Positions 4,040 to 61,075 of a stretch of DNA of 64,000 bases are shown in pieces. The position numbers and the translations under genes were made by a program. The DNA lies in contig JAWHQI010000079.1 in NCBI GenBank assembly GCA_033032865.1, forward strand, positions 9,738,501-9,802,500, written 5' to 3'. The stretch comes from Dactylorhiza incarnata (lineage: Eukaryota > Streptophyta > Magnoliopsida > Asparagales > Orchidaceae). The notes under the pieces were generated by a model. That model searched no databases. It was not told where the DNA came from and saw only the letters and a list, made by a program, of their open reading frames with translations. Numbering within the stretch: position 1 is the stretch's first letter; every line of letters begins with the position of its first letter.

Positions 4040-21264
<17,225 letters not shown>

Positions 21265-25128: not shown

Positions 25129-28043
25129 TGTAACAACCCTAAAAATTAAATAATTAATAGAAAGGGCTATCCGCAGCCCAAGCCCCTCCCCTGTTAAATC
25201 CCGAGCCATCCCCCTTTATTTTCCCAGCCGAGCCCCCCCTCCCTCGATATACCTCCTTACGGATGGCTAGGGCTCGCAATCCGCGCGTCTCCCGCTCTCG
25301 TTCCCGACTCCCGCGTGCAACACGCAGCGCCGCCTGCCGCTTCTCCTCCCTCCGGCGCCTCCTCCTCCTGCAGTGCCAGACGCCGCCTCCTCCTGCTCAG
25401 GACGACAACCTCTTGCTCTTCCTCCTCTAGGGCCGGCGCCTCCTCCTCTTGCTCTGGCCGGCGGATTCCTCCCCTCCAGAGATCATCCAGGAAGCCCTCC
25501 CCCTCCTCCTAGGAGTCCGGCAGCAGCATCTCCTACTTCTTCTCCAAGCCGCAATAGCCAAGCCTCTCCTTCTCGTGGACAACAACCCCTTCTTCTTCTC
25601 CAAGCCGCAGCAGCCAAGCCTCTCCTTCTCGTGGACAACAACCCCTTCTTCCCTCTCCTCCAAAGGAGCCGCCTCCAGCATCTCTTCCTCTGGCCGATCT
25701 CCAGCAGTCGACATTCCCCTTTTCCCCTCCTCTAATGGCCGGCAGCCCTCTTCTTCTCCGTTTCCGCGTAGGGTTTTGCTCGAACCCTCCTCCTCGGATT
25801 TTGGACTCGGATTTGATGAATATTGCAGGATCTCTCCAAAACCCTCTCTGATTTAGGGTTTCTCCAAGCTTAAGCGCCGCCAAATCTCCGGTCTCCGCGT
25901 TGTAATTCCTTCTCCCCTCACTTTTGAGGGAGGTAATTCTGCTAAACCCTCTTTGTTTAAATTTTGCGTCATAAAATGTTTGTATTAGCGTAGTAAATTA
26001 TGCTTTGTCGCCTTCGTTGTTCCTGAACAGGTTCGAAATATGATTTCAGATTTTTGCTCGCGCTATTTGGCCGCCCCCGTCAGCTTCAGCTTATTTAAGG
26101 CAAGTAGAGATCCTTCTCTCTTGCAAACATTGAGCTGTAATTCATGTGTTTGTTCTTATAATTATATGTTTCACCCTTGAATCCATGTTTCATCGAATAA
26201 ATTTAGATCTTAGATTCCTGATTTGACTTGTTTATAAATTGAGGTTTCACGTGTTTGAAATGACATGAAATCGTGAACATGAATGATGTTATTTTGATTA
26301 GTCACCTAGATGAATGAATTCCTTATTTGATGGATAATTCAAGGAGTGGTAGATTGTTGAGCATGTGCAACAAGCGTCATGATAATAATAGTAATGATTT
26401 CTGGTTAGCAAGTATATGATCGGTGTTTTTCTATCATATTCGGATCGTACACATGTTTACTTAGAAGTTAATCGTGTCTTGAAATGGATCAACCTGAATG
26501 AATGCTTGGTATCCTTGAAAATGATATATAGTAATCTTATTACTCGTAAATACTTGAATCCGCAAGCTTCAAAACTCTCTATCGAGTTCTTTGAGTCATC
26601 GAATCTTGTTTCTTATGCCTGTCTGGTTCCAAGACTTGGTTAAATAACGTTCTATAACTTGATTCCTCCTGTTTCACATTTATAAAATATACGCTTGTAT
26701 ATCTAAATCAGAATCTTGGTTACATGTCTTGATATGCTAGAATCCATGAAATCCTGCACTAAGTCAATAATAACGTAAGTTAACATTGAAAGGTAGGGTT
26801 TAATTGATGAAACTCCTTGACTTGGGTTCCCTCTTGAATCCCTAATGGGAACAAAGGACCGGTCGTAGCGAGCTTGAATTTCTGAATCACTAAGGTCCTG
26901 TGTGTCATAAGTAAATCTTGGAAGCTAGGGTTTAGGTGGTGCATCGTCTTGATTGCATGGTCACGGTAAGCGGGAAATACTCTTATTCTAGTAAGCCTTA
27001 CACCCGGACATGAGTGTGAACCATGTGTGCCCACTATAAAAACCTACGCATTTCATTGATTACAACTTATGATATTACATGATCTTTTATCTGCTTATTC
27101 CTGAATCTCCGGCAAGTCTTGAATCTGAACCTGTATCTGAACCTGAATCTGTCTGAATCATGAATCCTTCAGTTCATTTATGTGCTTAGCAATCATTGAA
27201 AGGTAGTGTTAAATTGATGTGACGCCTTGAAGCGAGTTCCCGCTTACCTTGTAACGGGAACCAATAATGTCATAGCAAGACCAATTACTTTGATAAGCCT
27301 TGCATTTAGACTCCTGTTAGAATCCCGTGCATCAGAAAGAAACACTTGCACCTTTCAATGATTACAACTAATGACATTACATGACTGAATCTTTGTTGTG
27401 CTTCGGAATAGCCTAATAATTCTGATTATTTCTACTCGTCTTGCTTACTGTCTGCCTTGCTAGTTTTGCTTCTGATAAAACTGGTACTTATACATTGCTG
27501 TTTCCCTTGTTAGTTTGTAATTTACCTTGCTTATGTTATCAATGTTCTGAGGCTTTTCCTTCTTGTTTTGGATTTGCCTTAGTGTTTGCGCATGCGCCGC
27601 CTGCTCGCTGAAGCCGATCTGCATCAAGCTTCAGGTTTTGTGTTTATGTTTCATTCCTTTTACAGTCGGATATTCTTTTTATGTAATAATTATAATCAAC
27701 CATTTTCTCCACTTTCATGGACAACTGCTAGGCTAAATATTATTATATGTACTAGAATTAGACATGTTTGCATGTTCATTCATCTGAGATGATCACTGCA
27801 TAAAAATATGTTTCAAAACTTGTCATGAGCTTTTACTAAAATGCATATGCACTTGTTTCAAGTTATCATGTTTTAAAGCTTCCGCAATAAATCAACCTGT
27901 TTTAATCAAAAGTAACTCTTTTAAAACTATTTGTAGTATTTTTGTCTCCGCCTAAGCAGACATGGATTTCTTTCCGCTCATGCCTGTGGCATCACGGCCC
28001 GCCCCGAAGCGCACTCTGACTCTTGTCGAGACGGGTCGTGACA
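25129..28043 (+). repeat. Left LTR of the LARD-like element (2915 bp)
   Basis: It aligns throughout with 29171-31990 and 37771-37885. The first ~700 bp is C/T-rich, GC-rich and repetitive; its proline-serine open frames are compositional. The remainder is AT-rich with an internal diverged duplication (26786-27064 against 27193-27368, sharing ATTGAAAGGTAG and GATTACAACT). Confidence 0.88.
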
Positions 28044-29170: not shown

Positions 29171-31990
29171 TGTAACAACCCTAAAAATAAAATAATTTAT
29201 AGAAAGGGCTATCCGCAGCCCAAGCCCCTCCCCTGTTAAATCCCGAGCCAGCCCCCCCTTTATTTTCCCAGCCGAGCCCCCCTCCCTCGATATACCTCCT
29301 TACGTACGGCTTGGGCTCGCAATCCGCGCGTCTCCCGCTCTCGTTCCCATCTCCCGCGTGCAACATGCAGCGCCGCCTGCCGCTTCTCCTCCCTCCGGTG
29401 CCTCCTCCTGTAGTGGCAGACGCCGCCTCCTCCTGCTCAGGACGACAAACTCCTGCTCTTCCTCCTCTAGGGCCGGCGCCTCCTCCTCTTGCTCTGGCCG
29501 GCGGATTCCTCCCCTCCAGAGATCATCCAGGAAGCCCTCCCCCTCCTCCTAGGAGTCCGGCAGCAGCATCTCCTACTTCTTCTCCAAGCCGCAGCAGCCA
29601 AGCCTCTCCTTCTCGTGGACAACAACCCCTTCTTCTTCTCCAAGCCGCAACAGCCAAGCCTCTCCTTCTCGTGGACAGCAACCCCTTCTTCCCTCTCCTC
29701 CTAAGGAGCCGCCTCCAGCATCTCTTCCTATGGCCGATCTCCAGCAGTCGACAGTCCCCTTTTCCCCTCCTCTAATGGCCGGCAGCCCTCTTCTTCTCCG
29801 TTTCCGCCTAGGGTTTTGCTCGAACCCTCCTCCTCAGATTTTGGACTCGGATTTGACGAATATTGCAGGATCTCTCCAAAACCCTCTCTGATTTAGGGTT
29901 TCTCCAAGCTTAAGCGCCGCCAAATCTCTGGTTTCCGCATTGTAATTCCTTCTCCCCTCACTTTTGAGGGAGGTAATTCTGCTAAACCCTCTTTGTTTAA
30001 ATTTTGCGTCATAAAATGTTTGTATTAGCGTAGTAAATTATGCTTTGTCGCCTTCGTTGTTCCTGAACAGGTTCGAAATATGATTTCTGATTTTTGCTCG
30101 CGCTATTTGGCCGCCCCCGTCAGCTTCAGCTTATTTAAGGCAAGTAGAGATCCTTCTCTCTTGCAAACATTGAGCTGCAATTCATGTGTTTGTTCTTATA
30201 ATTATATGTTTCACCCTTGAATCCATGTTTCATCGAATAAATTTAGATCTTAGATTCCTGATTTGACTTGTTTATAAATTGAGGTTTCACGTGTTTGAAA
30301 TGACATGAAATCGTGAACATGAATGATGTTATTTTGATTAGTCACCTAGATGAATGAATTCCTTATTTGATGGATAATTCAAGGAGTGGTAGATTGTTGA
30401 GCATGTGCAACAAGTGTCATGATAATAATAATAATGATTTCTGGTTAGCAAGTATACGATCGGTGTTTTTCTATCATATTCGGATCGTACACATGTTTAC
30501 TTAGAAGTTAATTGTGTCTTGAAATGGATCAACCTGAATGAATGCTTGGTATCCTAGAAAATGATATATAGTAATCTTATTACTCGTAAATACTTGAGTC
30601 CACAAGCTTCAAAACTCTCTATCGAGTTCTTTGAGTCATCAAATCTTGTTTCTTATGCCTGTCTAGTTCCAAGACTTGGTTAAATAACGTTCTATAACTT
30701 GATTCCTCCTGTTTCACATTTATAAAATATACGCTTGTATATCTAAATCAGAATGTTGGTTACATGTCTTGATATGCTAGAATCCATGAAATCCTGCGCT
30801 AAGTCAATAATAACGTAAGTTAACATTGAAAGGTAGGGTTTAATTGATGAAACTCTTTGACTTGGGTTCCCTCTTGAACCCCTAATGGGAACAAAGGACC
30901 GGTCGTAGCGAGCTTAAATTTCTGAATCACTAAGGTCCTGTGTGTCATAAGTAAATCTTGGAAGCTAGGGTTTAGGTGGTGCATCGTCTTGATTGCATAG
31001 TCACGGTAAGCAGGAAATACTCTTATTCTAGTAAGCCTTACACCCGGACATGAGTGTGAACCATGTGCGCCCACTATAAGCACCTACGCATTTCATTGAT
31101 TACAGCTTATGATATTACATGATCTTTTATCTTCTTATTCTCGAATCTCCAGCAAGTCTTGAATCTGAACCTGTATCTGAACCTGAATCTGTCTGAATCA
31201 TGAATCCTTCAGTTCATTTATGTGCTTAGCAATCATTGAAAGGTAGTGTTAAATTGATGTGACGCCTTGAAGCGAGTTCCCGCTTACCTTGTAACGGGAA
31301 CCAATAATGTCATAGCAAGCCCAATTACTTTGATAAGCCTTGCATTTAGACTCCTGTTAGAATCTCGTGCATCAGAAAGAAACACTTGCACCTTTCAATG
31401 ATTACAACTAATGACATTACATGACTGAATCTTTGTTGTGCTTCGGAATAGCCTAATAATTCTGATTATTTCTACTCGTCTAGCTTACTGTCTGCCTTGC
31501 TAGCTTTGCTTCTGATAAAACTGGTACTTATACATTGTTGTTTCCCTTGCTAGTTTGTAATTTACCTTGCTTATGTTATCAATGTTTTGAGGCTTTTCCT
31601 TCTTTTTTTGGATTTGCCTTAGTGTTTGCGCATGCGCCGCCTGCTCGCTGAGGCCGATCTGCGTCAAGCTTCAGGTTTTGTGTTTATGTTTCATTACTTT
31701 TACAGTCGGATATTCTTTGAAAGGAGGGTACATTCTTTTTATGTAATAATTATAATCAGCCATTTTCTCTTGTTTCATGGACAACCGCTAGGCTAAATAT
31801 TATTATATGAACTAGAATTAGACATGTTTGCATGTTCATTCATCTGAGATGATCACTGCATAAAAATCTGTTTCAAAACTTGTATCATGAGCTTTTACTA
31901 AAATGCATGTGCACTTGTTTCAAGTTATCATGTTTTAAAGCTTCCGCAATAAATCAACCTGTTTTAATCAAAAGTAACTCTTTTAAAACT
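29171..31990 (+). repeat. Right LTR of the LARD-like element, part 1
   Basis: Closely similar to 25129-27950. Its last five bases AAACT (31986-31990) are the left target-site duplication of the inserted element; the LTR resumes at 37771. Confidence 0.88.
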
Positions 31991-32286
31991 TGTTGGGTAT
32001 TGTAGCCACAATTACCTTGATTTGAAGAAGTGTTCCTTTGAACTAAGTTGAATTGAGTTGTATTTGATGTTGTTCTCTAGTTATGTGTTTGCAGGTTCTA
32101 AATTGCTAAGTGCACACCAAAGTCAGGTTGCAATGGATCACCAAACACAGTTCTAGACAATGTAATCCCTCATTGTATAGAACAAAGTGTTGGTCCATGT
32201 GTAATCTCTCTTTTGGAGTACACTTCATATACTCATAACTGAAGGTTTTCAAGGTTGAGGAGTGAAGTAGGCTTTCAGAAGAAAAG

Positions 32287-32645
32287 GAAATTTCTGCCAA
32301 GTCCATTCGTCGAGATGACTCGGGTCATTTCGACGAATCCCGACGAATGCTGACAGAGGTCTTTTTGGCTGAGTTGTGAAGAAATTTCTGAAGCCAAGTC
32401 CATTCGTCGAGATGACTCGGGTCATTCCGACGAATCCCGACGAATGCTGACAGAGGTCTTTTTGGCTGAGTTGTGAAGAATTTTCTGAAGCCAAGTCCAT
32501 TCGTCGAGATGACTCGGGTCATTCCGACGAATCCCGACGAATGCTGACAGAGATCAATTTTGTCTAGGTTCTCAAGAAAACTCTGCAGCTAAGTCAATTC
32601 ATCGGATGCTCTCGTGTTCTCCCGACGAATCCCGACGAATGACGG
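32287..32645 (+). repeat. ~95-bp tandem repeat in the LTR upstream region
   Basis: Three and a half copies of a unit with CCATTCGTCGAGATGACTCG and CCCGACGAATGCTGACAGAG. The same array occurs in the right LTR at 36507-36865. Its place upstream of the TATA box is where LTR enhancers usually lie. Confidence 0.9.
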
Positions 32646-32777
32646 GCAGACGGATTTCATTTCCTCGTTTCGTTTTTGAAATTTAGGGTTAGCCGACATG
32701 TACTGTACACGTGGCAATCCCTCCTTGTTTGTCGCCCTTCTCGTTGCTCTCGTTTATAGCCGTTGGAATGGATAGGC

Positions 32778-32786
32778 TATATATAG
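32778..32786 (+). promoter_or_regulatory. LTR TATA box
   Basis: TATATATAG about 790 bp into the 1555-bp LTR. The right LTR has the same box at 36998-37006. Transcription would start shortly downstream, which would place the stem-loop array in the RNA. Confidence 0.6.
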
Positions 32787-33174
32787 CTAAGGGTTAATTC
32801 CGTTTAACGATGAATCGTGAATCCAAGAGGAAAGACGTTGCTCTCTTCGTCCATCGGACGACCTTTATCGCAAATCAACTGCTCCTTGCCGACAAAGCTT
32901 TTCACGATCCCTCTTGAAGAAAGGAGAATACTAGATCTCTGATTTTAGATCTGTCAAGTTCCTTTCAGATCTAGTTTTCTCCTAAGTGCTAAGTTCAAGG
33001 TTTTTCAAAGTAAGATCTATTCTTCCTCTTTTAGATCCAGATTTCAGATTTCTATTTTCAAGGAAGAAGAAGATCTTTTGTTTTAGATCTGAAGAAAAGG
33101 ACTCCTCCAAGAGTTCCTAAGTAGATTGTTTCTCAATCAAAGATTTTGTAAGATTTCTTTACAATATTCTTGTA

Positions 33175-33327
33175 GGAAGCTTGCTTCCGAGTTGTAGGAG
33201 TTATACTCCGAGTTGTAGGAGCGTTGTCTCCGAGTTTGTAGGAAGTTTTCCTTCCGAGTTTGTAGGAGAGTTTGTTCTCCGAGCTTGTAGGAGTTGTATA
33301 CTCCGAGTAGTAGGATTTGTTTGATCC
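33175..33327 (+). repeat. Seven tandem short stem-loops with compensatory stems
   Basis: At 21-25 bp spacing: GGAAG/CTTCC (33175), GGAGT/ACTCC (33197), GGAG/CTCC (33218), GGAAG/CTTCC (33241), GGAGA/TCTCC (33265), GGAGT/ACTCC (33290), GGAT/ATCC (33313). Most units are preceded by TTGTA and all are followed by GAG. The stems differ between units but stay complementary. The array recurs in the right LTR at 37395-37547. Confidence 0.85.
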
Positions 33328-33547
33328 GAGTTCAGTGAAGTAGCCTAGTCTAGCCGGTCATGCTAGATAGGTGAGGTGGAAAGTGGACTACCCAAGATCG
33401 GGGAACCACTATAATTCTCTGTGTTGTGCTGTGCTCTTTTGGATTCTGTGTGCTTTTATTTCTAAGTTTTTTATTCCGCGAAAAGACATAGAATCCACCT
33501 ATTCACCCCCCTCTAGGTGATTTAGGTCGCAACTAGATACTTTCAAT

Positions 33548-33559
33548 TGGTATCAGAGG
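33548..33559 (+). promoter_or_regulatory. Primer-binding site
   Basis: TGGTATCAGAGG two bases after the left LTR, complementary to the 3' end of initiator tRNA-Met with one mismatch at the end. Confidence 0.8.
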
Positions 33560-33623
33560 GAGGTTGTTCGCTATAAGGTTAACACCTTGAACAAGATCTT
33601 TAAATCTAGTTGCAAGAGCAAGT

Positions 33624-35768
33624 TTGTCTGAAATGGAAAAATCCAAGGATTCTCTCAAGATGCTCGTTTGTTCTAAGGAGAACTTCCCTATGTGGAAGGA
33701 AAGAATGAAGTTCTACATGGAAGCCACCGACCCAAGAATTTTTCAGATAGTAGAGGAAGGTCCCCATGTTCCTATGAAGCCATCGTCTATAAATTCAGCT
33801 ATTATGATTCCCAAGAAAATGTTGGAGCTAGACAAAGATGAGATTGCCCTCGTCATCTTGGACAAGAAGGCAAAGAACATTATTGCTGGTGCAGTGGACG
33901 ATTCAATGCTACAAAATCTTATACACTGCAAGTCTGCCAAGGAAATGTGGGACTCCATAGTTGTTCTTATGGAAGGAACCGAAGAAGTAAGGGATGATCG
34001 AAGATCATTGCTGAATCAAGAATATGAAGCATTCAAGCAAGATCCAAGAGACTCCATTTCTGATACTTATGAGAAGTTCTTTAAGATCGTCAATGGTCTT
34101 AAGAACTATGATCGGGAATTCACCGTTGGAGAACTAAATGACAAGTTCTTGAGATCCCTAACGAAAGAATGGGATACCAAGGCTATTGCTATCCGGGAAT
34201 TCGGAAAGTTGGCTACGATGGAGCCACAAATTCTGTTTGGCAAGCTCTTATCACATGAGCTCAAGCTGAGTATTAGAAAAGCTGAAGAAGAGGGATGCTC
34301 CACCTCTGGAAGAGAGAAGACCGTGGCACTGAAGGCCAAAGAATCAAGAAGACATAAGGCCTCGTCTTCTGTCAGAAGAAAATCCTCAGATGAAGATGAT
34401 GAATCAGATGCTTGCCCCTCAAGCTCTGATATGTCTGATGGAGAGTTCTCTTCTCTCTCCAAGCAATTCAAGAGATTGCTCAAAAAAAGAAGCCAGAGGA
34501 AAAGTCAATCCTCATCAGATCATAGAAGATCAAGGGGTGATGATGAACATCACAAGAAGGAACACAACAACGACAGGTATAAATCTAAACCAAATAAATA
34601 TATTTCGACTGATATTATTTGTTTTTGTTGTAATAAGCCAGGACATTTAAGCACGGAATGTCCATACAAGAAGAAATCCTTCAAGAATAAGAGGAAAGAA
34701 GAAAAGAGCTTCTTGGCAAAGGAGTCCAAGACTCTTAGTGACAGTGACTCAGGGAAGTCAAGCTCAGATGAAGAAGCCTATTTTGGGCTTATGGCACATT
34801 CAGATGAGGAAGGAAGTGTCTCCTCATACAAAGGGAAGGTAAACTCGCACACTCCTCTTTCTGCATCTGAAACTGATTCCGTTGAAAATGAAGGCTATTC
34901 TTCAGAGGAAGACTTAGATCTAATGGTTCAGTATAAAGCTATGTTGGAGGGATTTGACAAATGCCGCAAGGTAGTCAAATCTCAAGCACATGAGATTGCA
35001 TCTCTCAAGATGGTGGAATCAGCTTTGAGGGAGGAAATTAAACAATTGACTCCTCTCAAAGATGAAATCCAACCCTTGAAAGATGAAATTAAAAGCTCCG
35101 CTGAATTATTAAATCTTAAGGAGAAGTTTATCAATGATTTAGAAGAAAAGTTAGTGGTGGAAAGGAAGATAGTTGAAAGCTTCTCCAAACCAAAAACTAT
35201 CCTTCCAATCATTGAAAGATTTTCTGCTCCTGCGAAGGTTAGTGGTCTTGGTCATAAGGCTGAAAGTAGTAAGGCTGCTAAGAAAAGAGTTGTTAAAGGT
35301 AAGGGCAAGGTTGACCAAAATCAAACCCGTCCCCGATGCTTCGAAACAACTGCTTTCAAGGGACCTTATGAAAAAGTAATCCCCAAGGATTATGGTTCAT
35401 TTGTACATGGATCAGTTATTAAGAAAGCACCAAAGATTAAATCAATTGTTGCTAAATCTCATGAAGAGAAGAAGGAGTCATGTGTGTGTTGCAACCACGA
35501 GACTTCTACTTCTAAGAATTTTGCTCCTGCTAAACTCCTCGTTCAAAAGTTAAAACAGGAAAACAAGAGAAGATACAATCGATTTGATTGTTGGTGTTGT
35601 GGCAAGATTGGTCACTTCGCCATAGATTGTTGGTTTAACCCCAGAAATGTCAAGACTCCACGGGTTAACAATGTAAGAATGACCCCTTGCAATGTTAACA
35701 CTCCGAGTGGTGTTAATCTAACCAGAAACCTAGGACCCAAATCCTTTTGGGTTCCTAAGGGAAATTAA
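33624..35768 (+). CDS. gag: Intact Sirevirus-type Gag, 714 aa
   Basis: A single open frame from ATG at 33624 to TAA. The N-terminal third is a UBN2/Gag_polypeptide region (FPMWKERMKFYMEA, residues ~20-35; KEMWDSIVVLMEGT, ~105-120). Basic and acidic serine-rich linkers follow. A zinc knuckle CFCCNKPGHLSTEC lies at ~333-346 and an acidic block with EAYFGLMAHSDEEG follows. A likely coiled coil lies at ~450-530 (heptad-like K/E/L repeats), and a second knuckle CWCCGKIGHFAIDC at ~656-669. The C-terminus FWVPKGN is typical of Sirevirus Gag just before protease. Gag packages the element RNA into cytoplasmic particles. Length and the two knuckles fit Sirevirus Gag. Unlike all other retrotransposon genes here, it is undamaged. 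Confidence 0.9.
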   Translation: MSEMEKSKDSLKMLVCSKENFPMWKERMKFYMEATDPRIFQIVEEGPHVPMKPSSINSAIMIPKKMLELDKDEIALVILDKKAKNIIAGAVDDSMLQNLIHCKSAKEMWDSIVVLMEGTEEVRDDRRSLLNQEYEAFKQDPRDSISDTYEKFFKIVNGLKNYDREFTVGELNDKFLRSLTKEWDTKAIAIREFGKLATMEPQILFGKLLSHELKLSIRKAEEEGCSTSGREKTVALKAKESRRHKASSSVRRKSSDEDDESDACPSSSDMSDGEFSSLSKQFKRLLKKRSQRKSQSSSDHRRSRGDDEHHKKEHNNDRYKSKPNKYISTDIICFCCNKPGHLSTECPYKKKSFKNKRKEEKSFLAKESKTLSDSDSGKSSSDEEAYFGLMAHSDEEGSVSSYKGKVNSHTPLSASETDSVENEGYSSEEDLDLMVQYKAMLEGFDKCRKVVKSQAHEIASLKMVESALREEIKQLTPLKDEIQPLKDEIKSSAELLNLKEKFINDLEEKLVVERKIVESFSKPKTILPIIERFSAPAKVSGLGHKAESSKAAKKRVVKGKGKVDQNQTRPRCFETTAFKGPYEKVIPKDYGSFVHGSVIKKAPKIKSIVAKSHEEKKESCVCCNHETSTSKNFAPAKLLVQKLKQENKRRYNRFDCWCCGKIGHFAIDCWFNPRNVKTPRVNNVRMTPCNVNTPSGVNLTRNLGPKSFWVPKGN

Positions 35769-35813
35769 TCTGTGATTGCAGGTATGTCCAAAGGCCAACC
35801 AAAACTCTAATCA

Positions 35814-35857
35814 GGCACTTGGACAAGTGGATGCTCATGGTACATGACCAGAACATA
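35814..35857 (+). pseudogene. Decayed protease active-site trace
   Basis: The frame after gag reads GTWTSGCSWYMTR, which resembles the copia protease block around DSGC but with Thr in place of the catalytic Asp. This suggests the element arose from a full-length copia by loss of nearly all of pol. Confidence 0.6.
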
Positions 35858-35916
35858 GAAGAAATATAGTAAGGCTGTTGAAAAGCTTAGGAAATCAGTC
35901 CAGGCACTGAATTTCT

Positions 35917-36210
35917 AAGGGGGAGATAAGTCTAAGGGGGAGAAAAGATTGAGGGGGAGCTTTGAGCTCTCATGCTTTTTCTTCCCTATCTGAAGTAGTC
36001 AGAAAGGGGGAGAGAAGTTGTATTTGCAAGAGAATTTGAAGTTGGGAGGAATTGGCAAAGTTAGATTTGGCAAAGTTGAAAGAGAAAGTTGAAAGGGAGA
36101 GAAAGTTGAAAAAGTTAAGTTTTTAACTCTCCTTATCTATTTGATATATATTTATTTAAGTGCAATTCAACTCAGTACATAGGTTCTGACTTCTTCAAAT
36201 AGGGGGAGAT
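35917..36210 (+). promoter_or_regulatory. Repeated polypurine tracts (AAGGGGGAGA type)
   Basis: AGGGGGAG-type tracts occur at about 35917, 35934, 35951, 36004 and 36201; the last one abuts the right LTR. Multiple such tracts before the 3' LTR are a known Sirevirus trait. Confidence 0.75.
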
Positions 36211-37765
36211 TGTTGGGTATTGTAGCCACAATTACCTTGATTTGAAGAAGTGTTCCTTTGAACTAAGTTGAATTGAGTTGTATTTGATGTTGTTCTCTAG
36301 TTATGTGTTTGCAGGTTCTAAATTGCTAAGTGCACACCAAAGTCAGGTTGCAATGGATCACCAAACACAGTTCTAGACAATGTAATCCCTCATTGTATAG
36401 AACAAAGTGTTGGTCCATGTGTAATCTCTCTTTTGGAGTACACTTCATATACTCATAACTGAAGGTTTTCAAGGTTGAGGAGTGAAGTAGGCTTTCAGAA
36501 GAAAAGGAAATTTCTGCCAAGTCCATTCGTCGAGATGACTCGGGTCATTCCGACGAATCCCGACGAATGCTGACAGAGGTCTTTTTGGCTGAGTTGTGAA
36601 GAAATTTCTGAAGCCAAGTCCATTCGTCGAGATGACTCGGGTCATTCCGACGAATCCCGACGAATGCTGACAGAGGTCTTTTTGGCTGAGTTGTGAAGAA
36701 TTTTCTGAAGCCAAGTCCATTCGTCGAGATGACTCGGGTCATTCCGACGAATCCCGACGAATGCTGACAGAGATCAATTTTGTCTAGGTTCTCAAGAAAA
36801 CTCTGCAGCTAAGTCAATTCGTCGGATGCTCTCGTGTTCTCCCGACGAATCCCGACGAATGACGGGCAGACGGATTTCATTTCCTCGTTTCGTTTTTGAA
36901 ATTTAGGGTTAGCCGACATGTACTGTACACGTGGCAATCCCTCCTTGTTTGTCGCCCTTCTCGTTGCTCTCGTTTATAGCCGTTGGAATGGATAGGCTAT
37001 ATATAGCTAAGGGTTAATTCCGTTTAACGATGAATCGTGAATCCAAGAGGAAAGACGTTGCTCTCTTCGTCCATCGGCCGACCTTTATCGCAAATCAACT
37101 GCTCCTTGCCGACAAAGCTTTTCACGATCCCTCTTGAAGAAAGGAGAATACTAGATCTCTGATTTTAGATCTGTCAAGTTCCTTTCAGATCTAGTTTTCT
37201 CCTAAGTGCTAAGTTCAAGGTTTTTCAAAGTAAGATCTATTCTTCCTCTTTTAGATCCAGATTTCAGATTTCTATTTTCAAGGAAGAAGAAGATCTTTTG
37301 TTTTAGATCTGAAGAAAAGGACTCCTCCAAGAGTTCCTAAGTAGATTGTTTCTCAATCAAAGATTTTGTAAGATTTCTTTACAATATTCTTGTAGGAAGC
37401 TTGCTTCCGAGTTGTAGGAGTTATACTCCGAGTTGTAGGAGCGTTGTCTCCGAGTTTGTAGGAAGTTTTCCTTCCGAGTTTGTAGGAGAGTTTGTTCTCC
37501 GAGCTTGTAGGAGTTGTATACTCCGAGTAGTAGGATTTGTTTGATCCGAGTTCAGTGAAGTAGCCTAGTCTAGCCGGTCATGCTAGATAGGTGAGGTGGA
37601 AAGTGGACTACCCAAGATCGGGGAACCACTATAATTCTTTGTGTTGTGCTGTGCTCTTTTGGATTCTGTGTGCTTTTATTTCTAAGTTTTTTATTCCGCG
37701 AAAAGACATAGAATCCACCTATTCACCCCCCTCTAGGTGATTTAGGTCGCAACTAGATACTTTCA
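36211..37765 (+). repeat. Right LTR of the gag-only element (1555 bp)
   Basis: Same length as the left LTR and nearly identical; by eye the differences correspond to positions near 32330, 32604, 32869 and 33417 of the left copy. Confidence 0.92.
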
Positions 37766-37770
37766 AAACT

Positions 37771-38464: not shown

Positions 38465-39541
38465 TGTTGGAACATGGTCTTCCGCATCTCCTAGGTTTGA
38501 GAATAACTCCTATGTGTATTTGATCTTGTGTGTTTAAGTATGTAGGAAACAAAATCCATATGACTCAAGGATGACATAAGAAGGTTGCGCCCAAATTTGA
38601 GCCAACAAATCCAACATGCCCACTAGCGACGGCGGTATCACCTAGCGCCCGACGCTAGCGATGATTAGCGCAATCCCGAGAGTAACTTTAGAAGGAGCTA
38701 GCGCCTGGCGGTAGCGGATAGCGCAGGCGGTAGCGCGGAGCACAGAAGGCAAGGTAGAAATGTTTACTCGGATTGAAGATTCTCCCGCGCAGAATAATGC
38801 CTAATCCGGGATAGCAACGACGGTAGCGCTAGCGCAGGCGCTAGCGCTGAGGCTATAAATAGGACCCCTCTTCTCTCTTTTTCGGTACACCCATCAAAGA
38901 GAGGTTGAGTGCTAGAATTCCAGAGCCTGATTTGGCCGAAAGTTGATCTCCCACCAAAGCTTTGCGAATTTCTGAAGGAGGACTTCTTCACGCCGAATCC
39001 AAACGACGTCCGCTTCAACAACGCTCATCCTACAGCGGATCATCGTCTCTAACTTCCGAAGTTCTTCAAGAGGGAGTTTTTATTTTTATCATTTCATATT
39101 CTTTGTAAACCGTTAGAGAATTCGCCTCGTGTTGGCGACTAGGTCTGGGTAGGACTTATGGCTGAAATTCGCCTCGTGTTGGCGACTAGATCTAGGTTAG
39201 GTCTAGGGGGTGCTCAAGGACATATCCGGGGTTGGATTGGCTAGAATGGCTTGAGGCCGAATCCGGGGAAGGATAGGCTAGGGCCACCGGTTTGTAGGGA
39301 TGCGAGTCGGGATAGAAAACAAAAAGAGTTTATTATTATTCGCCACCGATTTCTAGCGTTATAGAAATCAATTTTTGTAAAACTATATTTCATATTAATA
39401 TAGCATGTCTCTACTTTATTTCACTTGGTTTGTTTGATTTCTCACCTTCTTAATCACGTATTATTTCAAGATAATCAAAATATAAGAAAAAGTTTTAAAA
39501 CCCTTGTTCACCCCCCTCTAAGGGTGCCTACCGATCCAACA
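38465..39541 (+). repeat. Left LTR of the Sirevirus-like element
   Basis: It contains a TATA box TATAAATA at 38854-38861 (51165-51172 in the other LTR), dense GCTAGCGC/GGCGGTAGCG motifs upstream of it (38622-38852), two copies of TTCGCCTCGTGTTGGCGAC (from about 39120) and TTCACCCCCCTCTA near the end. Confidence 0.9.
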
Positions 39542-39591
39542 AATGGTATCAGAGCTAGGTTTTATTCCAATCGGCTTAACAACCGGGAATA

Positions 39592-50779: not shown

Positions 50780-51849
50780 TGTTGGAACATGGTCTTTCGC
50801 ATCTCCTAGGTTTGAGAATAACAAATCTTATGTGTATTTGATCTTGTGTGTTTAAGTGTGCAGGAAACAAAGTCCATATGACTCAAGGATGACATAAGAA
50901 GGTTGCCCCCAAAATTGAGCCAACAAATCCAACATGCCCACTAGCACCGACGGCATCACATAGCGCCCGACGCTAGCAATGATTAGCGCAATCCCGAGAG
51001 TACATTTAGAAGGAGCTAGCGCCTGGCGGTAGCGAATAGCGCAGGCGGTAGCGCGGAGCACAGAAGGCAAGGCGGAATGTTTCCTCGGATTGAAGATTCT
51101 CCCGCGCAGAATAATGCCTAATCCGGGATAGCTCCGGCGGTAGCGCTAGCGCAAGCACTGAGGCTATAAATAGGACCCTCTTCTCTCGTTTTCGGTACAC
51201 CCATTAGAGAGAGGTTGAGTGATAGAATTCCAGAGCCTGATTTGGCCGAAAGTTGATCTCCCACCAAAGCTCTGCGAATTTCTGAAGGAGGACTTCTTCA
51301 CGCCGAATCCAAACGATGTTCGCTTCAACAACGCTCATCCTACAGCGGATCATCGTATCCAACTTCAGAAGTTCTTCATGAGGGAGTTTTTATTATTATC
51401 ATTTCATATTCTTTGTAAACCATTAAAAAATTCTCCTCGTGTTGGCGACTAGGTCTGGGTATGACTTAAGGATGAAATTCGCCTCGTGTTGGTGACTAGA
51501 TCTAGGTTAGGTCTAGGGGTGCTCAAGGCCATATCCGGGGTTGATTGGCTAGAGCTGCTTGAGGACGAATCCGGGGAAAGATAGGCTAGGGTCACCGGTT
51601 CGTGGGGATGCTAGCCGGGATAGAAAACAAAAAGAGTTTATTATTATTCGCCACCGATTTCTAGCGTTATAGAAATCAATTTTTGTAAAACTATATTTCG
51701 TATTAATAAAGCATGTCTCTACTTTATTTCACTTGGTTTATTTGATTTCTCACCTTCTTAATTACGTATTATTTCAAGATAATCAAAATATAAGAAAAAG
51801 TTTTAAAACCCTTATTCACCCCCCTCTAAGGGCGCCTATCGATCCAACA
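50780..51849 (+). repeat. Right LTR of the Sirevirus-like element
   Basis: 1070 bp with many substitutions and small indels relative to 38465-39541, consistent with an insertion clearly older than the gag-only element. Confidence 0.9.
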
Positions 51850-53173: not shown

Positions 53174-53725
53174 ATTTTGCAATTTACTATTCTTAAAATT
53201 TCGGGAAAAAATTCTTCTAAGGGAGGTGGAGTTGTAACACCCTATTTCTCAATGGTAAGAAAGTTAGTACTTATCGACTAAAAAGTCTATGTATATCGAC
53301 TAGATAGTGTGTGCATATCGACTAAAAAGTCAGTACTTATTATTTGGAATTTAATCTCCAATATTCCTGATTTGAAGAAGAGCATTAACATAATAATAAA
53401 CTTAATGTGTTTGATGCATTCTTAATTAGGCTTGAGACACGTACCTTTAATCCATGTCTAGTTAAATATAGGAAATTGTAAGCAGAGCTCGCAGCATATG
53501 TACTTCGAATCAACTTCCATCAGTTGCTTGGAATCTTATAATTGATACGAGTGCAATGGAACTCATTTTGCCTTGATCCGAGGTCGTTTAGAGAAAACAA
53601 CCATTTTAAGTATCGCAGCGCGTCACGACGTCGCCGTTTTATTATATTGAGCATACGTGCTCTGAATCGACTTCCGTCAGTTGCATTAGAGTCATATAGT
53701 TGATGCGAGTGCAATTAAACTTGCT

Positions 53726-59084: not shown

Positions 59085-60291
59085 TGTGAAATTTTCCGAA
59101 GATATATGAGTGAGCAGGAATAGAACAACTCAAAGCAATAGCCAACAACCAGAAGCACATGAAAAACTTCAATCTTTATTGATAATTGCAGAAATCTTCA
59201 TTACGGAGCGAGGTATACATGGCGAGACATAATTTCGCCAGTACACAAAAACAGAAGAAAAAACAAGCTGAGAAAGATAACCAGCGGTCTGCCCACTGAG
59301 ACCGCCTAACCGCCCGACCTGTGAGTTCGCACAACTAGAACACGAGACTGCCCAAACTGTCTGCCCGCGAGAACAACACCAACTGAGAACTCTGCGACCT
59401 CCACTGATTCTCCCGAACTCCAGCAACCCGCACTGCAAGCCACGAGACTGCCCGAACACCCTAGAAGAAGAGGTGACCGTTGCTGCCTGCACAATCCACA
59501 GAAGCTGCACAAAAGAAGTTCAATCAGCAAACCGCCCGGTCACAAGAAAATGAGACCGCAGGAACTAGCCGTGAGCTCTGCTTACACTTGGTGAGATATA
59601 TTTTGCTGCTACAGTGACTCCTATTTATAGGCGTGCGACCTGATCTAGTCACCACCCTATGAGATAGAGTCACCGCCTTCTGACCGCGTGACCAAGATTG
59701 GTCAACCCGCGTGATTAGAAGATCGCTCTGCGCCTGTGAGCTCGCTGACTTCAAACCTGACCAGGAGAACGCCACTCCTGCAAGAAGCCGCGCGATCATG
59801 ACAACTCGCCCGGTCATGATGCTCACAACCTGTATTCGCCACCCGACCTCCTCCAGAGACCGTAAACACACCAGGCCGACTAGGGCAACAGCCTGCCAAG
59901 TCGACCAAACAACAGTAACCACATATACCACCAGATCACCGAAGGACCAGCTATGCGAACACAAACCGGAGACCACACGACTAAGAAGACTAGTCGGCGC
60001 GCACCACCAAGAACCCGGACAGCCACCAGACCGGACTGCCCATTCCAAAACAATCCTGTGCAGTTAACAGCTTAACCCGCACAGTTCAGCACAACCCGCC
60101 ACGCGGTCTCACAAGCCAGACCGCGCGACCTCACCTCGGCACCTTGGACAGAAGGAATGACGGTCAAGCCGAATGGATCTGCAGCTAGACTAAGAGAGCA
60201 GACCGCCGATGGAGACCGCAAGACCGCACGGTTTGCCAGACCGTGCGACTTCCCCCCCAGACCGCCAACTTCCACTTCAATATTTTCAACA
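59085..60291 (-). repeat. 5' LTR of the copia element
   Basis: 1207 bp, clearly homologous to 53726-54930 with many transitions. Several GACCGC motifs of the other copy are GACTGC or GACCAC here, as expected from CpG/CHG decay. TATA box (minus) at 59622-59629. Confidence 0.92.
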
Positions 60292-60296
60292 CTTGC

Positions 60297-61075
60297 TTCG
60301 CCTCGATCCAATATTATTTTGAGAAAATGACCATTTTGAGTATCGTAGTGCGTCCCGACAACGCCATTTTAGTATTTTGAGCATACATGCTTCGAATCAA
60401 CTCCCGTCAGTTGCATTTGACTCATATTGTTGATACGAATGCAACAAAACTTGTTTTGCCTCGATCTGAGGCTGCTTAGAGAAAATGACTATTTTGAGTA
60501 TTGTAGCGCGTCACGACGACGCCGTTTTAGTATATTGAGTATACGTGCTTCGAATCAACTTCTGTTAGTTGCATTAGACTCGTATAGTTGATACGAGTGC
60601 AATAGAACTCGTTTCACCTTGATCTGAGGTTGTTTAGAGAAAACGACCATTTTGAGTATCGTAGTGCGTCAAGGCGACGCCGTTTTAGTATATTTGGCAT
60701 ACGTGCTCCGAATTGAGTTCTGTCAGTTGCATTAGACTCATATAGTTGATACAAGTGCAACAGAACTCGTTTCGCCTCGATCCGAGGTCGTCTAGAGAAA
60801 ATGACCATTTTGAGTATCGTAGTGCCACTACGACGTTGTTTTAGTATATTGAGCTTACGTGCTCTGAATCGGCTTCTGTTAGTTGCATTAAACTCTTATA
60901 GTTGATACGAGTGCAATGGAACTCGTTTTGCCTCGATCCGAGGTCGTTTAAAGAAAACAACCATTTGATTATCGTAGTGCGTCATAACGTCGCCATTTAA
61001 GTGTATTAAGTAAATGAACTCGGAATTGGCCTTAGTTAGTTGCATTGGACGTGTATGGTCAATTCGAGAGCAACA
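60297..61075 (+). repeat. ~165-bp tandem array in the gypsy LTR
   Basis: About five copies here, plus about one and a half before the inserted copia (53480-53725). Unit landmarks are GCATACGTGCTCCGAATCGA, AGTTGCATTAGACTCATATA, GATACGAGTGCAA, CCTCGATCCGAGGTCG, GACCATTTTGAGTATCGTAG and GCGTCACGACGACGCCGTTT. The reverse complement of this unit is also present in the solo LTR at 47990-48390. Confidence 0.88.

Follow-up and report, generated by a model that had tools for sequence, protein, structure and literature searches.

Tandem hairpins with covarying stems and constant flanks in the presumed RNA leader of Sirevirus-like Copia retrotransposons of Dactylorhiza incarnata

LTR retrotransposons constitute a large part of many plant genomes. 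To our knowledge, little is known about how these elements select their RNA. In retroviruses, the leader holds a few unlike hairpins rather than tandem, like units with conserved linkers. As described in the accounts consulted, the TAR, polyA and packaging hairpins of HIV-1 resemble the array considered below in being structured RNA in R/U5 and the leader, with TAR and polyA found at both RNA ends. The packaging signals of STNV-1 are reportedly stem-loops with a shared loop motif. In the part of the STNV-1 study considered here (PMC6475782), several short, degenerate signals, which in this respect resemble the array, are proposed to guide packaging and are said to have no discernible role in vivo; the loops of the array vary, however, while its flanks are constant. 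Among plant Copia elements, BARE is credited with conserved dimerisation and packaging signals (PMC3735527), and the same paper describes packaged RNA as little known outside BARE; the words “stem” and “hairpin” are absent from its main text, which mentions no hairpin array.

Sireviruses (Bousios et al. 2010, PMC2829016) share with the element described here multiple polypurine tracts, a CA/ATTGG junction with the primer site TATCAGAG, a polyC integrase signal and, as judged by eye, possibly the type of palindromic repeat in U3. As defined in that article, the Sirevirus repeats lie upstream of the TATA box, with one palindrome per element, whereas the present array is found downstream of the TATA box and combines differing stems with constant flanks. 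In the main text of the article, “hairpin” and “stem-loop” occur 0 times. Judging by titles and the openings of abstracts, no account of such hairpin arrays was found in the literature, and a hairpin array in Sirevirus-like leaders is apparently undescribed so far.

The stretch of DNA that was analysed (64 kb, referred to as the window) holds a young LTR retrotransposon, the 5' and 3' LTRs of which differ at 4 of 1555 positions (99.74% identity), none of them inside the hairpin array. The element is composed of the following features, in coordinates of the window.

31986..31990 and again 37766-37770, no strand: target site duplication AAACT (from empty-site comparison)
31991..33545, + strand: 5' LTR, TGTTGG...CA, 1555 bp (from alignment to the 3' LTR)
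32296..32641, + strand: U3 tandem repeat, 97 bp x 3.6, Sirevirus RM-like
32778-32785, + strand: TATA box TATATATA (by eye)
32811..33632, + strand: presumed RNA leader, nearly ATG-free (start assumed ~30 nt past the TATA box)
33503..33520, + strand: U5 hairpin TCACC..GGTGA, the polyC-rich “integrase signal”
33546..33559, + strand: ATTGG and primer binding site TATCAGAGG, Met tRNA type
33633..35768, + strand: gag ORF of 711 aa, intact, of Copia type and with a CCHC knuckle (PF14223, E 9e-19)
35769..36210, + strand: 3' internal tail, a short protease-like remnant (by eye) and then five GGGGGAG polypurine tracts
36211..37765, + strand: 3' LTR (from alignment to the 5' LTR)

A second, duplicated segment of the window displays the empty site, at ~27924-27928. 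The definition of the RM repeat and the name “integrase signal” are taken from PMC2829016. In a protein search, gag was matched best by a sequence of the orchid Platanthera zijinensis, with 52% identity over 93%, and no pol follows gag. The presence of LTRs, a primer binding site, a polypurine tract and gag in an element that lacks pol corresponds to the gag-only non-autonomous type, named TR-GAG in the literature consulted. The element is a young Copia retrotransposon that has gag only and bears hallmarks of Sireviruses. The last of the five GGGGGAG tracts at 35769-36210 adjoins the 3' LTR at the attachment site, where it is followed by AT and then TGTTGG. The Sirevirus junction CA/ATTGG with primer site TATCAGAGC is represented by CA followed by ATTGGTATCAGAGG at 33544-33559, in which the last primer-site base differs, and the polyC signal at the LTR end by TTCACCCCCCTCT at 33502-33514. 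Upstream of the TATA box, the 97-bp repeat of U3 contains the palindromes ATTCGTCG..CGACGAAT and TCGG-N6-CCGA, the latter, by eye, a candidate for the CGG-CCG type of Sireviruses. The large gag of 711 aa (PF14223) also corresponds to the Sirevirus pattern, with a CCHC pattern at residues 329-344 for which the Pfam score, 20.7, is just below the cut-off of 20.8. In one full-length relative with LTR arrays ~10 kb apart, integrase (rve) is followed by reverse transcriptase (RVT_2), which is the Sirevirus order, and an ORF after pol, such as some Sireviruses possess, matches PF20167 at 35 bits, i.e., below the cut-off of 45.

Additional observations concern the LTRs and their surroundings. The U5 polyC segment ACCCCCCTCT (33505-33514) is 90% complementary to AGAGGGAGGT (33555-33564), which overlaps the primer binding site, and a U5-PBS helix is possible. 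At one locus (L023, G000:C743:5578500-5584500), three tandem LTRs of the window type are spaced by 1774 bp and separated by ~216 bp of internal sequence. At another (L026, G000:C222:22095500-22098500), an LTR of the window type has 65 differences, 64 of which, in window numbering, do not extend past 32858, with the remaining one at 33513; this distribution looks like a swap of U3 that left R/U5 and the array intact. The window holds a second Copia element with LTRs at 38465-39543 and 50780-51849 (93% alike), the 5' LTR of which has a tandem leader hairpin, TCGCC-TCGTGTT-GGCGA, at 39122 and 39169, 47 bp apart; the GTA-stem-GAG unit described below is absent from this element. A GC-rich palindrome array, GCGGGCTTCGCCCGC with spacer AACCAA and variants such as CACGGGCTACGCCCGTG, is found at 6150-6420 and adjoins an AT-rich tract with TATATATGTACATATA, and a tandem repeat region with internal inverted segments at 60287-61073 is related to 53493-53715.

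The initial annotation of this locus had described seven short inverted repeats at a spacing of 21-25 bp, with differing stems and 3' arms that exactly complement the respective 5' arms. Both observations were reproduced. Seven tandem units of the form GTA[stem-loop]GAG occupy 33172-33330, with starts at 33172, 33194, 33215, 33238, 33262, 33287 and 33310 (spacing 22, 21, 23, 24, 25 and 23), the 3' arm exactly complements its own 5' arm in 7 of 7 units, and the array recurs in the 3' LTR. The array and the neighboring elements of the leader are as follows.

32933..33090, + strand: AGATCT palindrome cluster in the leader
33124..33138, + strand: upstream hairpin GATTG/CAATC
33146..33164, + strand: upstream hairpin TTGTAA/TTACAA
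33172..33191, + strand: unit 1, GTA[GGAAG-CTTG-CTTCC]GAG
33194..33212, + strand: unit 2, GTA[GGAGT-TAT-ACTCC]GAG
33215..33234, + strand: unit 3, GTA[GGAG-CGTTGT-CTCC]GAG
33238..33258, + strand: unit 4, GTA[GGAAG-TTTTC-CTTCC]GAG
33262..33283, + strand: unit 5, GTA[GGAGA-GTTTGT-TCTCC]GAG
33287..33307, + strand: unit 6, GTA[GGAGT-TGTAT-ACTCC]GAG
33310..33330, + strand: unit 7, the last, comparable across lineages, GTA[GGAT-TTGTTTG-ATCC]GAG
33400..33415, + strand: block GGGGAACCACTATAAT, poly(A)-signal-like, 70 nt past the array (putative role)
37392-37550, + strand: identical seven-unit array in the 3' LTR

The distance from the TATA box, previously estimated at 400-550 bp, was measured to ~394-552 nt after TATATATA, and the upstream hairpins mentioned in the same context are present, i.e., GATTG/CAATC at 33124-33138 and AGATCT/AGATCT at 33071-33090.

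Within the window copy alone, the evidence for cognate pairing is moderate. When the 3' arms were re-dealt among the seven units, the observed pairing was matched in 4 of 5040 permutations, but the seven stems are not independent (units 1 and 4 share a stem, as do units 2 and 6), and with the five distinct stem types only, 2 of 120 permutations reach the observed pairing. At stem positions 4-5, Watson-Crick pairs are found in 12/14 cases in the own register, compared to 3/12 in the shifted register and 22/84 over all non-cognate combinations, by which shifted-register hairpins with GAGUUGUA as the loop were rejected. Protein coding through the array was also rejected; the open frame at 33121-33321 yielded one candidate but no match at E up to 10. 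Known RNA families were rejected on the basis of Rfam searches, which yielded two rows at E 2-2.7 for the leader segment 32700-33700, both far under the gathering score, and 0 matches for five relatives.

Stronger evidence was obtained from relatives of the array in the window's own genome (3.27 Gb, 3184 contigs), i.e., all evidence is from one genome, with covariation judged by shuffles, non-cognate controls and tree simulation. In a direct search the best 40 places all showed 100% identity, and among these, 11 contigs including that of the window share an LTR spacing of 4213-4221; diverged copies were therefore sought by pattern. A two-unit pattern fixing GGA/TCC gave 27,061 matches compared to 7 for the reversed pattern; with ~39 arrays among the 100 matches listed, the genome may, as a rough estimate, hold perhaps ten thousand arrays. 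Units were parsed by their flanks alone, requiring exact GTA and GAG, so that pairing was not built in. The first sample consisted of 39 distinct segments found through GGA..TCCGAG units, several of them of the window's type and with identical segments dropped, and contained 214 units, 94 of them distinct. Watson-Crick pairs at stem positions 1-5 were found in 84, 90, 91, 85 and 66 of these 94, while non-cognate arms of the same arrays were paired in 80, 94, 96, 57 and 33%; because non-cognate arms also pair well at positions 1-3, the covariation signal resides at positions 4-6. The summed stem was 394, as compared to 264.7 upon shuffling (sd 9.3, maximum 304 of 5000), and 948 as compared to 672.9 when shuffled within arrays (maximum 739 of 5000).

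The other samples extend this result to lineages with different stems. The A-T basal form, GTAAGA..TCTGAG, gave 12,918 + 13,222 = 26,140 matches genome-wide compared to 2,207 + 2,244 = 4,451 for the reversed pattern, and from this search 25 arrays were parsed, of which 8 share at least two cores with the first set and 17 are not of the first type. The stems of these deeper lineages, e.g., GGGC/GCCT, AGACC/GGTCT, GGATCAG/CTGATCT and AGCTC/GAGCT, resemble those of the window little, but they reside between the same GTA and GAG. The longest array comprises 16 consecutive parsed units over ~360 nt (the parse needs at least three in a row). In this second type, which comprises 17 arrays with 90 distinct units, pairs are formed at position 3 in 85, at position 4 in 84 and at position 5 in 79 of these units; the corresponding values for arms combined from different units of one array are 59.5, 48.9 and 46.9%, and the summed stem is 448 compared to 296.9 upon shuffling (maximum 334 of 5000). 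A third, stem-blind pattern, TTGTA..GAGTTGTA..GAG (TTGTAN{12,17}GAGTTGTAN{12,17}GAG), gave 28,108 matches against 334 reversed; from 68 distinct strings among the 100 matches listed, 96 distinct units were obtained, of which 75 have at least four contiguous pairs (G-U allowed) and 21 fail, with a summed stem of 434 compared to 275.1 (maximum 318 of 5000). Own-register pairing is thus above every one of 5000 shuffles in each of the three samples (94, 90 and 96 distinct units), which partly overlap; because the units and copies are related, the shuffle counts are not probabilities. A chance origin of the pairing was rejected by the permutations in the window copy together with these family-level shuffles, and tandem duplication with drift alone was rejected because the arms of different units pair far less at positions 4-6. 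The earlier proposal that hairpins in a transcribed leader are kept by compensating changes is thereby supported by many relatives. In viral contigs, 14 single pattern matches were found, none similar to the LTR or the internal part, and gag searches of these contigs gave 0 confirmed relatives.

The kind of mispair that is tolerated distinguishes RNA from DNA. If only a DNA palindrome were maintained, G-T and A-C would be equal failures; the two are observed at unequal frequencies, which favors RNA. Counted upward from the base of the stems in the first sample, the ratio GU:AC is 46:4 for cognate and 272:178 for non-cognate arms (Fisher p 3.4e-6, with units that are not independent and relatedness uncorrected). 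At positions 3-5 of the second type, 8 GU and 1 AC are found in 270 cells, while non-cognate AC amounts to 12-15% per position. Genome-wide, the A-C basal form shows no excess (2,087 compared to 2,786 reversed), but some of the 100 matches listed are plainly array units, i.e., A-C is rare rather than absent. The basal pair itself is weak covariation evidence. TCCGAG holds a CpG, the decay of which feeds basal G-U. Within the second type, basal G-U is found in 53/90 cognate cases compared to 66% non-cognate, and since the 3' U is nearly fixed there, basal G-U alone proves nothing.

The last unit, compared across 38 arrays (L062 was dropped from the 39 segments), shows a basal pair of GC in 31, AT in 4, GU in 3 and AC in 0; stem positions 2-4 are presupposed by the pattern, which leaves only 1, 5 and 6 as informative positions. 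On a tree built from the flanks, with ties broken towards paired states, these arrays display four both-sided changes of the basal pair. In simulations of independent change that kept the same expected number of changes per side, at least four both-sided changes arose in 11 of 20000 runs; when the absence of an AC tip was required as well, this number fell to 1. A looser criterion (at least four AT tips, no AC tip) was reached in 416 of 20000 runs. Between the LTRs of eight presumed 5'/3' pairs, on the other hand, 5 one-sided and 0 both-sided changes were found in 234 stem pairs, with changes per site of 1.1% in stems, 1.8% in loops, 1.7% in flanks and 0.25% in linkers, all from small numbers. 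Changes after insertion are only one-sided, and the compensations therefore belong to replicating lineages. Collectively, the data favor sense-RNA pairing over DNA palindromes or template switching, and selection at the RNA level is very likely. Of the two causes offered initially, selection on RNA pairing is thus favored over template switching, on the basis of the GU excess, the AC deficit and the both-sided lineage changes. Stem mismatches at neutral rates, named at the outset as the outcome that would speak against selection, are seen only between the LTRs of one insertion, which are copies that no longer replicate, and not across lineages.

Conservation of the flanks was determined for hairpins picked by their stem within array spans, counting only those with 4-9 pairs. 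Among the 137 hairpins of the first type, G, U and A are found at positions -3 to -1 in 118, 124 and 118, and G, A and G at +1 to +3 in 119, 111 and 112; for the 81 hairpins of the second type the numbers are 64, 69 and 66, and 63, 63 and 68. The overall conservation, ~78-91% of the hairpins, is somewhat inflated because the spans were found through the flanks. GUA and GA occur together in 109/137 first-type and 56/81 second-type hairpins. TGTA precedes 108/137 of the first type but only 44/81 of the second, in which the base before GTA is G in 10/57. This more variable base, together with GAGGTA linkers, indicates that the constant part of the unit looks like GUA/GA rather than UGUA. We take GUA/GA flanks to be the signature of the bulged-G (sarcin-ricin/loop E) motif, which serves as a lead only: the unit shares with this motif a helix preceded by GUA and followed by GA, but the outer helix is absent or at most one pair here, and the comparison is made at the level of sequence.

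Thermodynamic folding using ViennaRNA does not favor seven separate hairpins in the window array, because arms of different units also pair. For the isolated array the lowest pair probability of each cognate stem is 0.54, 0.02, 0.00, 0.53, 0.36, 0.41 and 0.88, and with a span limit of 40 nt units 2 and 3 are still near 0.06. The single hairpins are weak (-2.9 to -5.3 kcal/mol). Relative to shuffles, z is -5.6 for the antisense and -3.2 for the sense strand, and a 16-unit array of another lineage is mildly unusual (z -2.3). Either the RNA folds locally during transcription, or a protein and non-canonical pairs of the flanks contribute, or the model is wrong here.

The leader around the array is poor in ATG, from which it follows that the RNA is probably scanned and translated. 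In the window leader there is 1 ATG compared to a mean of 7.9 in dinucleotide shuffles (3 of 2000 as low), and across 39 leader stretches (23,264 bases) ATG occurs 32 times and CAT 185 times, or 13 and 72 times in the 13 stretches with both a TATA box and a primer site; these counts include copies of one lineage repeatedly, and for the lineage of the window itself the two triplets occur at similar counts (2 and 2). AGATC is found 9 times in the window leader compared to 1.7 in shuffles (0 of 2000 as high). A strong inverted repeat, AGGAGAATACTAGATCT / AGATCTAGTTTTCTCCT (94% complementary), lies at 32922-32983 amid the AGATCT palindromes. On the 3' side of the array there is a GGGGAACC..TATAA[AT] block, and variants of GGGGAACCACTATAAT occur 57, 15, 14, 1, 1 and 1 times in the loci examined.

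The array thus constitutes, in this genome, an RNA feature of the whole clade. That it functions as an RNA structure in a clade of Sirevirus-like Copia elements, where it would serve as a multivalent Gag-binding platform, comes close to an even call; packaging or dimerisation through such a platform, taken as the function itself, is a tentative assignment that falls somewhat short of probable. The data show the array, its covariation, its spread in one genome, the conserved flanks and the shortage of ATG; Gag as the protein partner and a role in packaging are our inference. Selection would act on sense-RNA pairing and on the flanks while the stem sequence would drift in compensated pairs, and the number of units, which varies between lineages, presumably changes by tandem gain and loss. 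Its position in R/U5 places the array in the leader of the full-length RNA and, if a poly(A) site follows, near the 3' end too. The repeated array would bind the zinc knuckles of Gag and thereby select and dimerise genomic RNA, and, given the weakness of each single hairpin, ribosomes would still be able to scan through it. A more specific version, which is doubtful, is that each unit could be a bulged-G module capped by a drifting stem, in a tandem, modular Gag platform with a unit count that would tune RNA selection and with gag-only copies that would ride the particles of their relatives.

These proposals have to be weighed against a role in 3'-end formation, where UGUA linkers and hairpins, located shortly before the conserved poly(A)-signal-like block, would together act as a far-upstream element in repeated form and determine where R ends. 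UGUA is used by the far-upstream elements of plants and by CFIm, and both the TGTA before 108/137 first-type hairpins and the recurring close variants of GGGGAACCACTATAAT, 70 nt past the array in the window, are consistent with such a role. It would, however, not need complementary arms, and it does not account for the scarcer TGTA (44/81) and the G before GTA (10/57) in the second type, for a GAG side about as conserved as GUA or for the ~360 nt of one 16-unit array; this alternative is unlikely. Control of translation, in which the array would shape scanning, shunting or initiation on the long leader, is quite unlikely: the leader is ATG-poor and so probably scanned, but the shortage of ATG is a property of the whole leader rather than the array, and hairpins of -2.9 to -5.3 kcal/mol would hardly halt scanning.

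It is very unlikely that the array is a mutational by-product, in which the hairpins would themselves give rise to tandem copies and reverse transcriptase, switching template by fold-back, would rewrite an arm on the template of its partner. Tandem palindromes in U3 as well, both-sided changes that occur between lineages and not between the LTRs of one insertion, and the single LTR with 64 of 65 differences at or before 32858, which resembles a swap of U3, agree with such a process. Fold-back would, on the other hand, produce perfect arms with G-U equal to A-C, at variance with the 46:4 compared to 272:178 above; in addition, stems within the 4-9 pair range cluster at 5-6 pairs (154/218), and GUA/GAG is conserved while the loops vary. 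A role at the DNA level, through palindromes bound by transcription factors or through cruciforms within the transcribed DNA, is highly improbable, since there is no common palindrome, the stems change while pairing stays, and G-T cells are tolerated more than A-C; palindromes in the U3 of Sireviruses are thought to be regulatory in the part of PMC2829016 considered here.

The array provides a structural marker for relatives of Sireviruses. Its natural variants in unit number and stem make cis-recognition, dimerisation and 3'-end control directly testable. If the bulged-G Gag platform is correct, it would represent a new architecture for genome recognition in retroelements.
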